A DNA stretch of 64,000 bases, from the NCBI RefSeq assembly GCF_002077175.1, contig NZ_CP014943.1:1798001-1862000 (forward strand), written 5' to 3'. A model generated the notes under the pieces. The model was not told the DNA's origin. It ran no database searches and worked only from the letters and a program-made list of their open reading frames with translations. This stretch comes from Colwellia sp. PAMC 21821 (GTDB lineage: Bacteria; Pseudomonadota; Gammaproteobacteria; Enterobacterales; Alteromonadaceae). Positions 45,667-51,010 of the stretch are shown here, in pieces; the first letter of the stretch is position 1; the number at the start of each line of letters is the position of its first letter. A program made the translations under genes and the position numbers.

Positions 45667-47502
45667 CTATTCCTTATCAGCATTACATTGACTTAACCGA
45701 GAGAGAAAAACATAAGGATCAATATCTTGAATATTGGGCGAATCAATCGCAAAAATCACTTTAACCGAATAATTCCCTAAATTAGCAAAAAAACGGGTTT
45801 TTATTGCCTGCTGTATCCTAGTAAATTTCACATGAATTTGCTCAGGGGTTTGATGTGGGCACAAGAATAGGTACTCACCTTCAATGATAACACCGGCATA
45901 ATCTTCCTCATCAATATTTTCATTGATAATAACGGCAAGCACTTGACTGACATCGGTTAAAATTTTACGGTTAAAGTGAAAGCTAAGCTCCTGCCAGTTT
46001 TCAACCTTCAAATAGGCCACAGAAATATTATATTGATACTTTCTTGCCATTTTATATTGCTGTTGATACCAGCGCTTCGTTTGAACCGGTTGTGCTAAAT
46101 GATTTTGAGGTAATTCTATTTCATCATAGCTACGATTCAGTTTCTGACGGCGCACTTGAAAACGGCAGAAACCTATGAAAATAACACTACAACTTAGTAA
46201 TGAAGCGAGTAAAATAATCAGCATCTTTTGTTGATCATATTTTTCACTGAACTCCAAACTCAGCTCACTTTGTTCCGCTAAATTTAACGCTAATATTTTT
46301 GCTTTATTACTGGCAGATTTAGCGGCATTGGCAAATGAGTTATTATCACTCACGTTCGGATATAGCGTTTGATATAAAGTTAAATAATGCTTTTGTGCTT
46401 CGATTGCTTGCTCAAATTTTTTCTGTCTGCTGTAGTAATCTGTCAGCAATAAATACAGTTCTATTTGTTGTGGGGCAAGCACTAAACTTTTAGCCAAAGA
46501 CTGAGCTGAAAGCAGCATGGCATCGGCGGCTTCAGATTGCTCCAAGGCATACATAACTTTGACTAAACTAATTTGAGTTGATAACTTCACGCGCACCAAA
46601 TTGTACTCAGTAAAAACCGCTTGGGCTTTAAGCAAGCGCACTTTTGCCAGCGTAAACTGCTGTTGTTGATAAAGAACTTGCCCTAACCCCAGCTCTGCGT
46701 AGGCTTCACGTATATTCAATTTGTGTTGCTGTGCAAATTGCAATGACTGCCAAAAAGCATTATAAGCGTCATCATATTGTTGTAACTGATAATAGGCCTT
46801 TGCCACTAAATGGTAGCTTTGGGCAATACCTTCTGTTCTCGACATATCTGTACGCAATTTTATTGCGCGGCCAAGTAGCTCGACAACATTGTCATATTCA
46901 GATAAATAAAAATGCGCTTCGGCAATAATTTCTAATAAGGTGATCTGATCTACATTTTGCATGTTTTGACTAAGTAAGCTTTCAACCTTACTCAATTCTT
47001 TGACCGCCAAGGCATAATCAGCACTTAGCGCATAAGCTACAACCGAATAAGCCAGTGCCTGCAAATGATAATTCATATTATTTGCTTGCACAGCTAATCG
47101 AGCGGCCTTTTGTGAGGTCTCTTTTAACTGAATATAATTACCTTGAGCATAATAACCACGCGCAATTTTCAACCGTAAATCTAGTTGAATATCGACATCA
47201 ATATTTTCGATTTCGCAACCATATTGTGCAAATTGAAAGGCCACAAAAAAGTTCCCGCGATTAAATGCAACATCCGACAATATAGAAAAAGCTTTCGCCA
47301 CCTTATTATCACCATACTGATTTCGATTGCTTACTATAGCTTGTGCAACGTCAACAACATCTTGAGCAATCAATAACTCTTTATCTTGGATATAATAAGC
47401 ATCAAGCAACTGACGATAGTTTTTATCGCTATTGAGCGATTCGGCTTGTCCGTTTAGCATTATGCAAAAACTGATTAAAATACCTAGCAGCAAGTGCTTC
47501 AT
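45667..47502 (-). CDS. Exported TPR protein with membrane anchor and degenerate GGDEF-like domain
   Basis: 611 residues. Signal peptide (LLLGILISFCIMLNGQAES), then a periplasmic run of tetratricopeptide-like helix pairs (~30-380), one membrane segment (MLIILLASLLSCSVIFIGF, ~425-443), and a cytoplasmic C-terminal domain (~480-605) with a GGDEF-like pattern: AYLKVENWQELSFHFNRKIL where the metal site should be, and IEGEYLFLCP in place of GGDEF. Catalytic and metal residues are lost, so it probably does not make c-di-GMP but may bind a partner or nucleotide. GGAAG about 13 bases before ATG. Confidence 0.82.
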   Translation of the reverse strand: MKHLLLGILISFCIMLNGQAESLNSDKNYRQLLDAYYIQDKELLIAQDVVDVAQAIVSNRNQYGDNKVAKAFSILSDVAFNRGNFFVAFQFAQYGCEIENIDVDIQLDLRLKIARGYYAQGNYIQLKETSQKAARLAVQANNMNYHLQALAYSVVAYALSADYALAVKELSKVESLLSQNMQNVDQITLLEIIAEAHFYLSEYDNVVELLGRAIKLRTDMSRTEGIAQSYHLVAKAYYQLQQYDDAYNAFWQSLQFAQQHKLNIREAYAELGLGQVLYQQQQFTLAKVRLLKAQAVFTEYNLVRVKLSTQISLVKVMYALEQSEAADAMLLSAQSLAKSLVLAPQQIELYLLLTDYYSRQKKFEQAIEAQKHYLTLYQTLYPNVSDNNSFANAAKSASNKAKILALNLAEQSELSLEFSEKYDQQKMLIILLASLLSCSVIFIGFCRFQVRRQKLNRSYDEIELPQNHLAQPVQTKRWYQQQYKMARKYQYNISVAYLKVENWQELSFHFNRKILTDVSQVLAVIINENIDEEDYAGVIIEGEYLFLCPHQTPEQIHVKFTRIQQAIKTRFFANLGNYSVKVIFAIDSPNIQDIDPYVFLSRLSQCNADKE

Positions 47503-47774
47503 TGAATATTAGCTTCCATCTTATGTATTAAGGATTGTTGATATTTCATAGAGATACTAAGTAAATTAAATTGCAAAAAGCTTTGCCATTCTAGCTCGTT
47601 TTACTCTTTCTCGGCTTACTGGCAACTATGCTGTCGAATTTTAAAACACCTAGTTGCGTGGCTAAACACTAAGTAAACTACTGTAAAAGTGATTTAAGAA
47701 CAACATCTGCAATAAATAAATTTCTTAATATTTAGTATGTTAACGTAAATAACTCTTAGGGATATTAAAAATGG

Positions 47775-47802
47775 TTTACAAATAGAATACTTTGCCTATA
47801 AT
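47775..47802 (+). promoter_or_regulatory. Promoter of the c-di-GMP riboswitch RNA
   Basis: TTTACA (47775-47780), 16 bases, TATAAT (47797-47802): 5/6 and 6/6 matches to the sigma-70 consensus. The expected start near 47809 lies just at the first hairpin of the riboswitch leader. Confidence 0.75.
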
Positions 47803-47809
47803 CGGAGTT

Positions 47810-47906
47810 GAGCTGCTAAAGCTCGACAAGGGCAAATCCAATGAAAATTGGAGACGCAAAGTTACCGATCTAAGGGGAAACCTATGATAGCGGAACTGCC
47901 AAATTT
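47810..47906 (+). ncRNA. c-di-GMP-I (GEMM-I) riboswitch aptamer
   Basis: Conserved GEMM elements in order: leader hairpin GAGC/GCTC (47810-47824); AAGGGCAAATCC; stem CCAAT-GAAA-ATTGG with the GNRA tetraloop; GACGCAAAGTTACC; then TCTAAGG, a short loop, and CTATGATAGCGGAACTGCC. This matches the Vibrio Vc2 layout (GGGCAAACC, GAAA loop, GGACGCAAAGCC, CCTAA, GTAGCGGGGTTACC). No sense-strand gene begins downstream; the minus-strand peptidase gene ends at 47989. The region 47503-47988 holds no protein gene. Confidence 0.9.
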
Positions 47907-47956
47907 AGATATAGTGGGGGCTTATCTTAATTTATCGGTTAGTCATCATAATCTCT

Positions 47957-47969
47957 GGTAGCTTTGCGT
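47957..47969 (+). promoter_or_regulatory. Anti-aptamer segment downstream of the riboswitch
   Basis: GGTAGCTTTGCGT can pair with aptamer core 47854-47866 (ACGCAAAGTTACC) over 13 contiguous positions with one G-U wobble. Pairing would exclude the ligand-binding fold. A mild T-rich tract (CCTTTGTTTCTG) follows. Confidence 0.55.
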
Positions 47970-47988
47970 GCCATCCTTTGTTTCTGCA

Positions 47989-49770
47989 CTAATTTACTTC
48001 TGATAACACTTTCTGTTTAGCCTTTTGTTCTGCAACATAATTATTAATCACGGTTTCTAACATTGATAACGGCATTGAACCGTTTTTCAACACTTGGTCA
48101 TGAAAATCTCTCAAATCAAAGCTTTCACCTAACGTTTGCTCCGCCATTTTACGGAGCTTTTTAATCGTTAATTCACCCATTTTATAAGACAAAGCTTGGC
48201 CGGGCCAAGAAATATAGCGGTCAATTTCAGTTTTAACATTGTGCAGTGACAATGCCGTGTTATCGGCTAAATAGTGCATTGCCTGCTCACGACTCCAGCC
48301 TTTTGCGTGCATACCTGTATCAACCACAAGTCGACAAGCGCGCCACATTTCATAAGTTAGTCGCCCAAAGTCACTATAAGGATTTTGATAAAATCCGGCT
48401 TCTAAGCCCAAATACTCTGAATATAGCCCCCAACCTTCGCCAAATGCCGAAATATAAGTATTATTCCTAAACTTAGGTACGTTCTCCATTTCTCGTGCAA
48501 TGGAACTTTGTAAATGATGACCCGGTACGGCTTCATGCAAAGTTAACGCTTCTAACACATATAACGGTCGGCGATCTAAACGATAGGTATTAACCCAATA
48601 GTTGCCGGCTTGGTCGTCTCGTGCAGGGCCAGAATAACGTCCTGTGGTGTATTTAGGCGCTATATTGGCTGGTACTTCAATCACGCCATATGGCGTTCGT
48701 GGCAGAGTTTTAAATAACTTAGGTAATTGCGCATCCATTTTTTTAGCAATAAATGAGGCTTCTTTGAGTAATCCTTCAGGAGTGGTTGCGTAAAATTGTT
48801 TATCGGTACGCAAAAAATGCACAAAATCAGCAAAAGTTCCGGTAAAACCTGATTGCTTAATAATGGCCTCCATCTCAAGCTTTATTCGCTTCACTTCTTC
48901 TAAACCAGTGTTGTGTACTTCCTCTACTGAAATCGGCAAAGTCGTATAATGCTGCAACCGGTTTATATAATAATCTTGGCCATTAGGTAAAGAACTCGCA
49001 GCAATATTTGTTCGCGCGTTAGGTTGATAACGATGCACCATATAATCAAAGTATTTTTGATAGCTTGGGATTACAACATTCACTATGGTTTCAGAAGCTT
49101 GTGCCTGTAGTGTCGACTTAAGTTCTTGACTGAAATATTCAGGCATTGTTAAAAATGGCTGATAATAAGTGCTTGAGCTAGCCTCTGTTTTTATAAAAGC
49201 TTTAATCGATTCTTCAAAACCTTTTAAGACAATTTTCGGTTGAGTTATGCCTTCTTCGATTCCTTTATCCATCCAGTAAATTTGTTGAGTGAAATATTCA
49301 GGTAAAGCGTTTAATCGAGCCAGATAATCGCGATAATCTTGTTCAGTTTTAAAGCTGGCTTGGCTTTTAATGCGACTGATCCAAACGTGGAAACCTGATT
49401 CAGCAGTAAGTGGCATGTAATGCTCTTTGTTACTATAGCTATCCAGTTGATTTTTCATTGTATACGACAACACCGCATGATTAATTGCATCTGCTTGATC
49501 AAGACTTTTGATGTTAACCTGCTCTAAGCGATGATATATAGCGCGCAAAGCTTGATGTTGTTGCTTGAGCTTATTCGGGGATAAATCAGGTAATTGGCTG
49601 TTAGTTTCACCTACAATATCCTGGTTTAATGGACTTTGATGATCTTTGTAGTGTTGATAATCTATAATAACCTGCTCAAGGTTCTCGCTCTCTGACACTG
49701 AAGGAAATTTAGCCGACTGACAAGCCATAACAAAAAATAGAACAAATACCGTGATTGAAAATACCTTCAT
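47989..49770 (-). CDS. DUF885 family lipoprotein, predicted zinc peptidase
   Basis: 593 residues. Lipobox FVMAC gives a lipid-anchored N-terminus. Zinc-site motif HEAVPGHHLQ (~418-427), with AFGEGWGLYSEYLGLE downstream supplying a further Glu, and SYKMGELTIKKLR near the end, as in the DUF885 family. Such proteins are thought to be metallopeptidases; the substrate is unknown. Long promoter region of 226 bases shared with the divergent cyclase. The riboswitch RNA would run antisense into its 3' end. Confidence 0.87.
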   Translation of the reverse strand: MKVFSITVFVLFFVMACQSAKFPSVSESENLEQVIIDYQHYKDHQSPLNQDIVGETNSQLPDLSPNKLKQQHQALRAIYHRLEQVNIKSLDQADAINHAVLSYTMKNQLDSYSNKEHYMPLTAESGFHVWISRIKSQASFKTEQDYRDYLARLNALPEYFTQQIYWMDKGIEEGITQPKIVLKGFEESIKAFIKTEASSSTYYQPFLTMPEYFSQELKSTLQAQASETIVNVVIPSYQKYFDYMVHRYQPNARTNIAASSLPNGQDYYINRLQHYTTLPISVEEVHNTGLEEVKRIKLEMEAIIKQSGFTGTFADFVHFLRTDKQFYATTPEGLLKEASFIAKKMDAQLPKLFKTLPRTPYGVIEVPANIAPKYTTGRYSGPARDDQAGNYWVNTYRLDRRPLYVLEALTLHEAVPGHHLQSSIAREMENVPKFRNNTYISAFGEGWGLYSEYLGLEAGFYQNPYSDFGRLTYEMWRACRLVVDTGMHAKGWSREQAMHYLADNTALSLHNVKTEIDRYISWPGQALSYKMGELTIKKLRKMAEQTLGESFDLRDFHDQVLKNGSMPLSMLETVINNYVAEQKAKQKVLSEVN

Positions 49771-49996
49771 GACAAAATCTCAAATATTAATTTAAATAGC
49801 TAACTTTTAAATACCATAACAAAACTTAAATTTTTATAAAGAAAATTTTGCTTTATCTTGGCTATTTTCGGATTGCGCTCAAATGGTTAACTTGAGCTTT
49901 ATGATTAATACATTTTATGATGGCACTATGACTCGAATTACTAGAGAATAGCTTACCCGCTATTTTAGTTAATCCCCTAGGTTAAAGGTTGGAATA

Positions 49997-51010
49997 TTGA
50001 AGTATCATGATTCCATAGCACAAGCTGAACAAAAAATGCACGCCGCCATAAAACAATTGCAGTTATGGCATATAGCCGCGACGCCAATTAATTACGCGGT
50101 AAGTTACGAATATCTCAATAAACAATCAAAAACACTGAATGCCGCGATTGAAAAACAATTAGCTAGCGGGAAAAAGCTTGATAACTTTTTTTTAGAAGAA
50201 ATATATCGTCAGTATGTTTTAGGACAAAGCGCCTTTCGGGGTGAGCTGATAGACGATCTTGATGAGGTTTTAGTCGATCTACAAAGTAACAGTAAACAAT
50301 CGTCACTGAGTACAAACCTCCTAGTAACTCAATTGGATGAAAATATTGCCAGCTTAAAATCTACTGATAAGCGTGAAATAATTAACGCTATTAAACAAAT
50401 ACGACAAACGACTCAGAAATTTAAGCTCGAACAAGAAAAACTGGCTGAGCAACTGCTCGTATCTCAAAAATCCACTCAAGCATTACGCTCAGAATTGGAT
50501 GATGTAAAAAAAGAAATTTATTTTGACGCTTTAACAGGGCTTTATAACCGTAAAGCCATGACAAAACATTTAGATCTTTGGTTATCTACTGATCCAAATC
50601 AACATGTCGCGGCAATTGTTATTAATATTGATCAGTTTTCTCAAATGAATGAAAATTTAGGCCCTATGCTCAGTGATGTATTGTTAACAAAAATTGCTAA
50701 AAAAGTAAGCGGTTATGTTGGTGAAAGTGGCTTACCGGTAAGGTCTGCAGGCGATGAATTCTTAATTTTACTGCCTGATGTTAAAAGAATGATAGCTGGT
50801 GAGGTTGCTGAAAAAATTAGGCAGAGTGTAGAAAAGTTACGCTTTATCAGCAGTAAATCAGGTACTCGATTACCACAAATGACGCTCAGTATTGGCGTTA
50901 GCGATTACAACGTCGCGACAAGTGCGAATGACATCATAAACCAAACTCGTGCACTGATTAACGATAATACTCATATCCATACAAATCACGTTAATATTGC
51001 TAAAAATTAG
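49997..51010 (+). CDS. Diguanylate cyclase with AGDEF signature
   Basis: 337 residues. N-terminal ~170 residues are helical, with a predicted coiled coil (LEQEKLAEQLLVSQKSTQALRSELDDVKKEI) and no recognised sensor. GGDEF domain ~175-335 with DALTGLYNRKAM, INIDQFSQMNENLG, and RSAGDEFLILLP: the first Gly of GGDEF is Ala. AGDEF is active in some known cyclases. No RxxD inhibitory site. Start is TTG with GGTTGGA upstream; no nearer ATG is in frame. Tail-to-tail with DUF523 with no gap. Confidence 0.87.
   Translation: MKYHDSIAQAEQKMHAAIKQLQLWHIAATPINYAVSYEYLNKQSKTLNAAIEKQLASGKKLDNFFLEEIYRQYVLGQSAFRGELIDDLDEVLVDLQSNSKQSSLSTNLLVTQLDENIASLKSTDKREIINAIKQIRQTTQKFKLEQEKLAEQLLVSQKSTQALRSELDDVKKEIYFDALTGLYNRKAMTKHLDLWLSTDPNQHVAAIVINIDQFSQMNENLGPMLSDVLLTKIAKKVSGYVGESGLPVRSAGDEFLILLPDVKRMIAGEVAEKIRQSVEKLRFISSKSGTRLPQMTLSIGVSDYNVATSANDIINQTRALINDNTHIHTNHVNIAKN

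Follow-up and report, generated by a model that had tools for sequence, protein, structure and literature searches.

Sensor RNAs for c-di-GMP normally lie at the front of the gene that they control and are known mainly as cis elements. The closest precedent for a stand-alone RNA of this kind is merRNA of Bdellovibrio bacteriovorus. According to its published description, merRNA is a non-coding RNA of 445 nt that carries a c-di-GMP riboswitch and has no conserved downstream ORF, a reservoir role was proposed for it, and its authors found none outside the Bdellovibrio lineage (PMC3627812). The same paper states that free-standing ligand-gated riboswitches have rarely been described (PMC3627812). 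In Sinorhizobium, the SAM-II riboswitch RNAs RZ, RA1, and RA2 accumulate as small RNAs from the metZ and metA leaders (PMC9373788). Antisense-acting riboswitches, as in the pocR cobalamin case and in a 2023 survey, point at the 3' end of a convergent gene (PMC9943018). Among its examples, that survey gives a gene of Colwellia sp. PAMC 21821, the riboswitch class not being stated in the passage, and this may or may not be the locus studied here (PMC9943018).

In this study, we analysed a 64,000-nucleotide stretch of the Colwellia sp. PAMC 21821 genome (the window), which contains a c-di-GMP aptamer within a conserved RNA. The RNA may resemble merRNA in that the aptamer lies inside an RNA in which no conserved ORF was seen, but a diguanylate cyclase gene lies downstream in 57 of 69 loci. 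Compared with the published description of merRNA, it differs in its length of about 172 nt, its occurrence in 18 genera, its anti-aptamer arm, its invariant loop, and the frequent downstream cyclase. Like the antisense riboswitches, it converges with the 3' end of a gene, but that gene, DUF885, is dispensable to the conservation of the RNA. It shares with the Sinorhizobium RNAs the character of a riboswitch RNA that accumulates as a small RNA, here predicted; unlike them, it has no constant gene downstream whose leader it could be. Among the matches listed in a literature search on c-di-GMP riboswitches, this RNA was not described, and it may have been listed before as an antisense case in supplementary tables. 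Free-standing ligand-gated riboswitch regulators rest on few cases, and this one would be a compact RNA whose conservation extends over 18 genera, some of which include named strains. If the reading proposed below is true, a second messenger acts here not by way of a cis leader but through a small RNA that is dedicated to this role and gated by the ligand. Natural experiments are at hand in lineages that lack each of the neighbour genes and in those where the RNA has decayed, which makes the question directly testable.

The aptamer, its promoter, and the extent of the RNA

The features of the RNA in the window were as follows.

47775..47802, + strand: predicted promoter of the RNA, TTTACA-16-TATAAT
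47809..47980, + strand: conserved, putatively stand-alone RNA (172-position model R1), start taken from the promoter and end from the point where conservation stops
47809..47825, + strand: 5' hairpin P0
47821..47903, + strand: c-di-GMP-I (GEMM-I) aptamer
47855..47861, + strand: aptamer core strand CGCAAAG, used by the aptamer or else paired with the 3' arm
47907..47927, + strand: hairpin outside the aptamer, with the loop core GNGGGGGCUU at 47914-47923
47956..47973, + strand: anti-aptamer arm UGGUAGCUUUGCGUGCCA
47970..47985, + strand: pyrimidine-rich tail, the proposed transcription end (base profile of 70 loci), with a U-run that is weak in this genome

A preliminary description of the locus had placed a well-formed GEMM-I aptamer at 47826-47906. 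A covariance search bore this out, with a match to RF01051 (c-di-GMP-I / GEMM-I) at 47821-47903 on the + strand that scored 81.6 bits (gathering score, 35; E = 1.6e-14) and covered the full model, 1-87. Apart from one overlapping match of the same clan, this was the only match above a curated threshold within the 64-kb window. For comparison across the family, we used an alignment (A3) of 69 rows from 18 genera, with 67 distinct sequences; it leaves out L131 (40.9 bits, without the loop) and L130 (47.9 bits, loop present), the latter being counted among the 70 promoter loci. The ligand contacts G20, A47, and C92 of the Vc2 aptamer presumably correspond to positions 24, 51, and 91 of the RNA. 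Column counts gave G at position 24 and A at position 51 in 69/69 rows, and C at position 91 in 68/69 with one alignment gap. These results indicate that the aptamer is a genuine member of the c-di-GMP-I family, with ligand binding predicted. The RNA agrees with RF01051 in aptamer sequence and structure, in contact positions that are invariant bar that gap, and in a downstream strand that competes with the aptamer. It differs in that no constant gene follows, the conserved unit is 172 nt long, and an invariant hairpin lies outside the family model.

The near-consensus promoter noted in the preliminary description was also recovered, with 11 of the 12 consensus positions. A scan of 47400-50100 found 10 promoter-like sites where 9.2 were expected, which is about the chance level. 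The site at 47775-47802 is considered more than a chance match because the exact form TTTACA-N15..19-TATAAT is kept upstream of the RNA in 57 of 70 family loci. The RNA thus has a promoter of its own, as a trans-acting small RNA is expected to have, and the activity of this promoter is predicted.

The genus alignment showed a single conserved block from the promoter to approximately 47980, and conservation stopped beyond it. As judged from this block, the aptamer makes up the 5' half of a longer conserved RNA (about 172 nt, from 47809 to ~47980), whose start and end of transcription are putative. At its 3' end, the RNA has a long stem followed by the pyrimidine tail, which reads CCUUUGUUUCUGC after the arm in Colwellia sp. 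PAMC 21821. The tail is weakly U-rich and was not flagged by a simple terminator scan. The long stem and the pyrimidine stretch would nevertheless make a terminator, with a U-run weaker than in textbook cases. The aptamer, the conserved promoter, and the unity of the whole RNA are directly supported at the level of sequence.

Competing folds and the invariant loop

The 3' arm contains UUUGC in 69/69 rows and is complementary to GCAAAG of the aptamer. Two alternative structures, the aptamer and a long anti-aptamer hairpin, would therefore be open to the RNA. The pairing of the arm with GCAAAG held in 67/67 distinct sequences, once through a G-U pair, and at least six of the seven core pairs were present in the predicted fold of all 67. 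The longest uninterrupted pairing between the core strand and the arm was 7.55, compared with 4.75 in shuffles; it exceeded the shuffled mean in 67/67 sequences and was significant in 51/67. Pairing between the 5' flank and the tail was significant in only 4/67. Because the aptamer strand is fixed, the arm cannot covary at GCAAAG, and double changes were seen farther in, at the anti-aptamer pairs 80-137 and 86-132. The inner helices 5 to 7 of the long hairpin were kept in 62.5-72.5% of cells, and the outer stem pairs were in places kept in about half of the sequences (33/69 at pair 58-149).

The full-length RNA was predicted in the anti-aptamer fold in 67/67 distinct sequences. Against shuffled 3' parts, this fold had a mean z of -3.9, with values below -2 in 63/67, and it lay below the aptamer-locked fold by a median of 10.1 kcal/mol. 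When the first 119 positions were folded alone, the aptamer was favoured in 55/67. In these predictions, the fold preferences of the partial and the full-length RNA are the pattern of a co-transcriptional switch.

For the RNA of the window, both predicted folds include the hairpin that follows the aptamer. Its loop core was invariant in 69/69 aligned members, a count made after the prior exclusion of L131, which is without the loop. The stem was paired in 99.4% of cells, and three of its eight pairs had changed on both sides (A-U to G-C, U-A to C-G, and G-C to A-U). P0 had both-side changes in 5/6 pairs and was paired in 91.1% of cells. Taken together over the 69 rows, the aptamer, P0, and the loop hairpin were paired in 97.6% of cells, with 16 pairs showing double changes, while control alignments slid by 1 to 3 columns were paired in 30.6-44.5%. 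None of 500 shuffles reached the paired-cell, double-change, or covariation score and 6/500 reached the count of further pair types; the shuffles ignore relatedness, related sequences inflate the number of double changes, and the helices had themselves been derived from these sequences. We also considered whether the G-rich loop pairs with the tail of the RNA and rejected this, as the pairing did not rise above shuffles (6.85 vs 7.00 pairs; significant in 0/67). The competing pairing and the invariance of the loop can thus be read directly from the aligned family.

The arm and the loop bear on the reading that this RNA, like merRNA, is a sponge or reservoir that acts by binding the messenger. 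An aptamer RNA with its own near-consensus promoter fits such a role, for which Bdellovibrio offers the precedent (PMC3627812). We regard it as improbable here. It leaves unexplained both the invariant loop outside the aptamer and the anti-aptamer arm, by which the core strand is predicted to be closed in all 67 distinct sequences when the RNA is folded at full length.

Neighbouring genes and distribution

The genes that flank the RNA in the window were as follows.

45667..47502, - strand: TPR protein gene, divergent neighbour (Pfam TPR matches only; found in 62/69 loci)
47989..49770, - strand: DUF885 gene, convergent neighbour (PF05960, 570 bits; found in 43/69 loci)
49997..51010, + strand: GGDEF (AGDEF) diguanylate cyclase gene (PF00990, 94.2 bits; on the + strand in 57/69 loci)

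The cyclase gene is the next recognisable long reading frame on the strand of the RNA, in agreement with the distance of about 2 kb given earlier, and its motif AGDEF matches the earlier assignment. The name "degenerate GGDEF" for the gene at 45667-47502 was not borne out: Pfam recognised TPR only, the C-terminal part had no match of note, and a profile comparison with the cyclase gave an insignificant probability of 0.4%, though EGEYL was aligned with AGDEF. The label is thus unproven. This Pfam-unrecognised C-terminal part is itself conserved (EGEYL, PHQ, ANLG, DIDP) and might be a very diverged GGDEF-like domain.

Neighbours were scored as not found when the window's proteins had no tblastn match at E 0.001 in stretches of ~7 kb (4.4 kb in one case). 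By this measure, DUF885 was not found in 26 of the 69 members, the same-strand cyclase in 12, and the upstream TPR gene in 7. The RNA was followed by DUF885 and then the cyclase in 33 loci, directly by the cyclase in 24, by DUF885 without a same-strand cyclase in 10, and by neither in 2. The TPR gene was also not found in 7 of those 10. In a quick tree of the TPR gene with long branches (66 rows, namely 62 carriers and four genus genomes without the RNA), the presence of DUF885 changed at least 8 times, 5 of these changes being forced by well-supported branches. The cyclase count of this tree ignores strand, and the neighbour table of the 69 loci is preferred. The constant element of the locus is thus the RNA, and the neighbours are variable. 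It looks as if it has been kept nearly unchanged in Colwellia-like bacteria while the surrounding genes come and go, and its persistence without each neighbour in turn is seen directly in the loci.

It had been proposed that the transcript runs into the 3' end of DUF885. The RNA does point there in the window, but its conserved part ends about 10 bases before the DUF885 frame at 47989, so that any overlap with the coding region requires transcriptional read-through. An antisense RNA under c-di-GMP control, acting to repress or destabilise the mRNA of the convergent DUF885 peptidase, would suit this geometry, and in the 2023 survey no other riboswitch class was as prone to antisense placement as the c-di-GMP riboswitches (PMC9943018). 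Even so, we hold this to be very unlikely and reject it as the main role. DUF885 was not found in 26/69 carriers, so there is no constant convergent target; it is kept beside decayed copies of the RNA in G004, G010, G011, and G012; and the conserved part of the RNA ends before the coding region. Of the two possibilities raised in the preliminary description, a ligand-controlled antisense or a trans-acting RNA, what stands is an independent ligand-sensing RNA, which is the best reading, and what falls is the antisense to DUF885.

The cyclase gives rise to another reading, in which the RNA is a leader riboswitch of that gene, either directly or across DUF885. The ligand would prevent termination and let the transcript reach the cyclase, running antisense to DUF885 where that gene is present. 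The cyclase lies downstream on the same strand in most loci and directly in 24, about 123-336 nt past the RNA. The second GEMM-I of this genome (L002, described below) also has a core-pairing strand and a U-run, so control by read-through fits local design. We nevertheless consider this reading unlikely. A cis riboswitch is expected to have a constant downstream gene, and here the RNA is kept in the 12 of 69 carriers in which no same-strand cyclase was found, including all 7 of one genus. For this reason, a lost gene alone does not explain the RNA, although relatives with an intact gene right after the aptamer do exist, as the 24 direct loci show. A motif around TAGAGAATA upstream of the cyclase, a pattern seen by eye, was present in 28 of 45 non-genus cyclase loci (16/24 with the cyclase direct and 12/21 with DUF885 between). 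Its occurrence in both arrangements suggests that the cyclase keeps its own promoter. Moreover, the leader reading leaves the invariant loop without a role. The roles of a stand-alone small RNA and a cyclase leader could coexist.

In the window, an element GGCACT...TTACTAGAGAATA lies at 49922-49950 upstream of the cyclase gene, and many relatives have similar motifs. It is possibly a cyclase promoter of unrecognised type.

A GEMM-I aptamer of some kind was found in 17/17 genomes of the genus, and in 13/17 one occupied this position, with the TPR gene and DUF885 on either side. Over 12 comparisons within the genus, the RNA was 86-100% identical to the window copy, compared with 47-86% for the third codon positions of DUF885. 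The remaining genomes, G004, G010, G011, and G012, have the same flanking genes and no RNA match, and decayed traces were seen by eye in the gap. The covariance model gave 22 bits (E = 0.00017) at the locus in G004, 6.9 bits (E = 1.3) in G011, and no match at the locus in G010 and G012, which leaves G004 as the sole decayed copy supported by the model. The aptamer core GCAAAG was gone from the gap in all four, and by eye the loop was not intact at the expected hairpin site in any of them; a single GGGGG does occur in the gap of G012, at another position close to the TPR gene. Since the aptamer and the loop are lost together, these results suggest that they share one function.

The preliminary description had also allowed for a remnant, left behind after the riboswitch lost its gene and now in decay. 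In this genome it has no adjacent sense gene, and genus relatives do contain decayed copies. However, the RNA is conserved over 18 genera and within the genus better than the third codon positions beside it, its promoter is conserved, its stems have double changes, and true decay is found elsewhere, in G004. A remnant is refuted by this conservation, and we give it next to no weight.

The covariance model of the 172-position unit was also run against 196 sampled genomes of the family at E 0.001. It matched 72/196, and leaving out 8 genomes with weak matches only (<=40.9 bits) gave 64/196, including G037 at 47.9 bits; as this was a sample under strict filters, weak members may escape the count. 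The matches followed up were those above 37.1 bits, which left aside 14. Of the 71 loci scanned with the model, 70 gave full-length hits, at 47.9-203.5 bits. The remaining one was L131 (40.9 bits), an ordinary GEMM without the loop motif, beside which none of the window's neighbour genes was found. In an order-level scan of 394 genomes, 10 matches reached at least 86 bits, all within the window's family. The loop motif was present in 0/10 of the weaker matches (<=43 bits; 9 outside the family and G020 inside), which were rejected as evidence for the RNA outside the family.

An exact search with the 21-base hairpin in a collection of named genomes, which possibly omits the window's own genome and its nearest ones, returned 46 stretches titled Colwellia, Cognaticolwellia, Thalassotalea, Litorilituus, or Alteromonadaceae, plus one Endozoicomonas. 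CUUUGC lay downstream in 46/46 of the stretches and GACGCAAAG upstream in 44/46, one of the two exceptions beginning inside the RNA. The same search among viral contigs found none. The title of the Endozoicomonas sp. G2_1 record (L184) does not fit, its counterpart G017:C41 being placed in the window's family.

Proposed mode of action and further searches

On balance, it is fairly probable that the locus is a small RNA gene in its own right, which has a promoter of its own and yields a c-di-GMP-switched product of about 172 nt, rather than just a leader belonging to a neighbour. More tentatively, with somewhat less than even confidence, we propose that it is a family-wide small RNA in which c-di-GMP sets the fold, and probably the end, and which regulates RNAs or a protein in trans through its invariant G-rich loop. 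The effect of c-di-GMP, the action in trans, and the targets are what we infer. As the RNA is made, the aptamer would fold first. With c-di-GMP present, the aptamer form would be held and the arm left free. Without c-di-GMP, CUUUGCGUGCC and the pyrimidine tail, together 20-odd bases at the 3' end, would pair with the aptamer core strand and the 5' flank to give one long hairpin, which most likely would also terminate transcription. The messenger would thus determine whether the RNA is short and closed or, instead, open or read through, and the loop hairpin would be the likely effector, acting in trans on RNA or protein.

An encoded small peptide was considered as well. From the GTG in the loop, present in 68/69 sequences, the frame is 6 codons long in 30 of them, and in the remaining 38 its length ranges from 7 to 66 codons. 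Frames from the other common starts comprise 10 codons in 50/53 sequences or are truncated where the aligned stretch ends. The peptide was rejected, as no conserved frame was seen within the RNA across the aligned sequences.

We also looked for sites complementary to the loop, AGCCCCCAC, in G000, G002, G101, and G036. There were 7, 15, 5, and 6 sites, respectively, compared with 0, 2, 1, and 1 for a reversed-pattern control. Among the 30 of 33 sites that were fetched, 4 were the RNA's own locus and 20 lay inside frames of more than 100 codons, which for 14 sites were on the opposite strand alone. In blastn comparisons, one further site recurred in the two nearest genomes, and three of the G002 sites were copies of one repeat. 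A 9-mer loop-complement search of the four genomes found no site recurring across genera except the RNA's own locus. The excess over the reversed control is partly due to the G002 repeat.

Colwellia sp. PAMC 21821 has two GEMM-I aptamers in its genome. The second, L002 (G000:C1:3674182-3674275), precedes a gene for a secreted-looking DUF3718 protein and looks like an ordinary leader. A downstream strand, GUGGUUUU, can pair with its aptamer core, AAAACCAC, and a clear U-run comes next, which makes a ligand-gated terminator plausible. The predicted fold was of unremarkable stability (z = -1.2). In G012, in which the stand-alone RNA has been lost, two GEMM-I aptamers lie on opposite strands about 600 bases apart, at C35:414126-414201 (-) and 414816-414891 (+).
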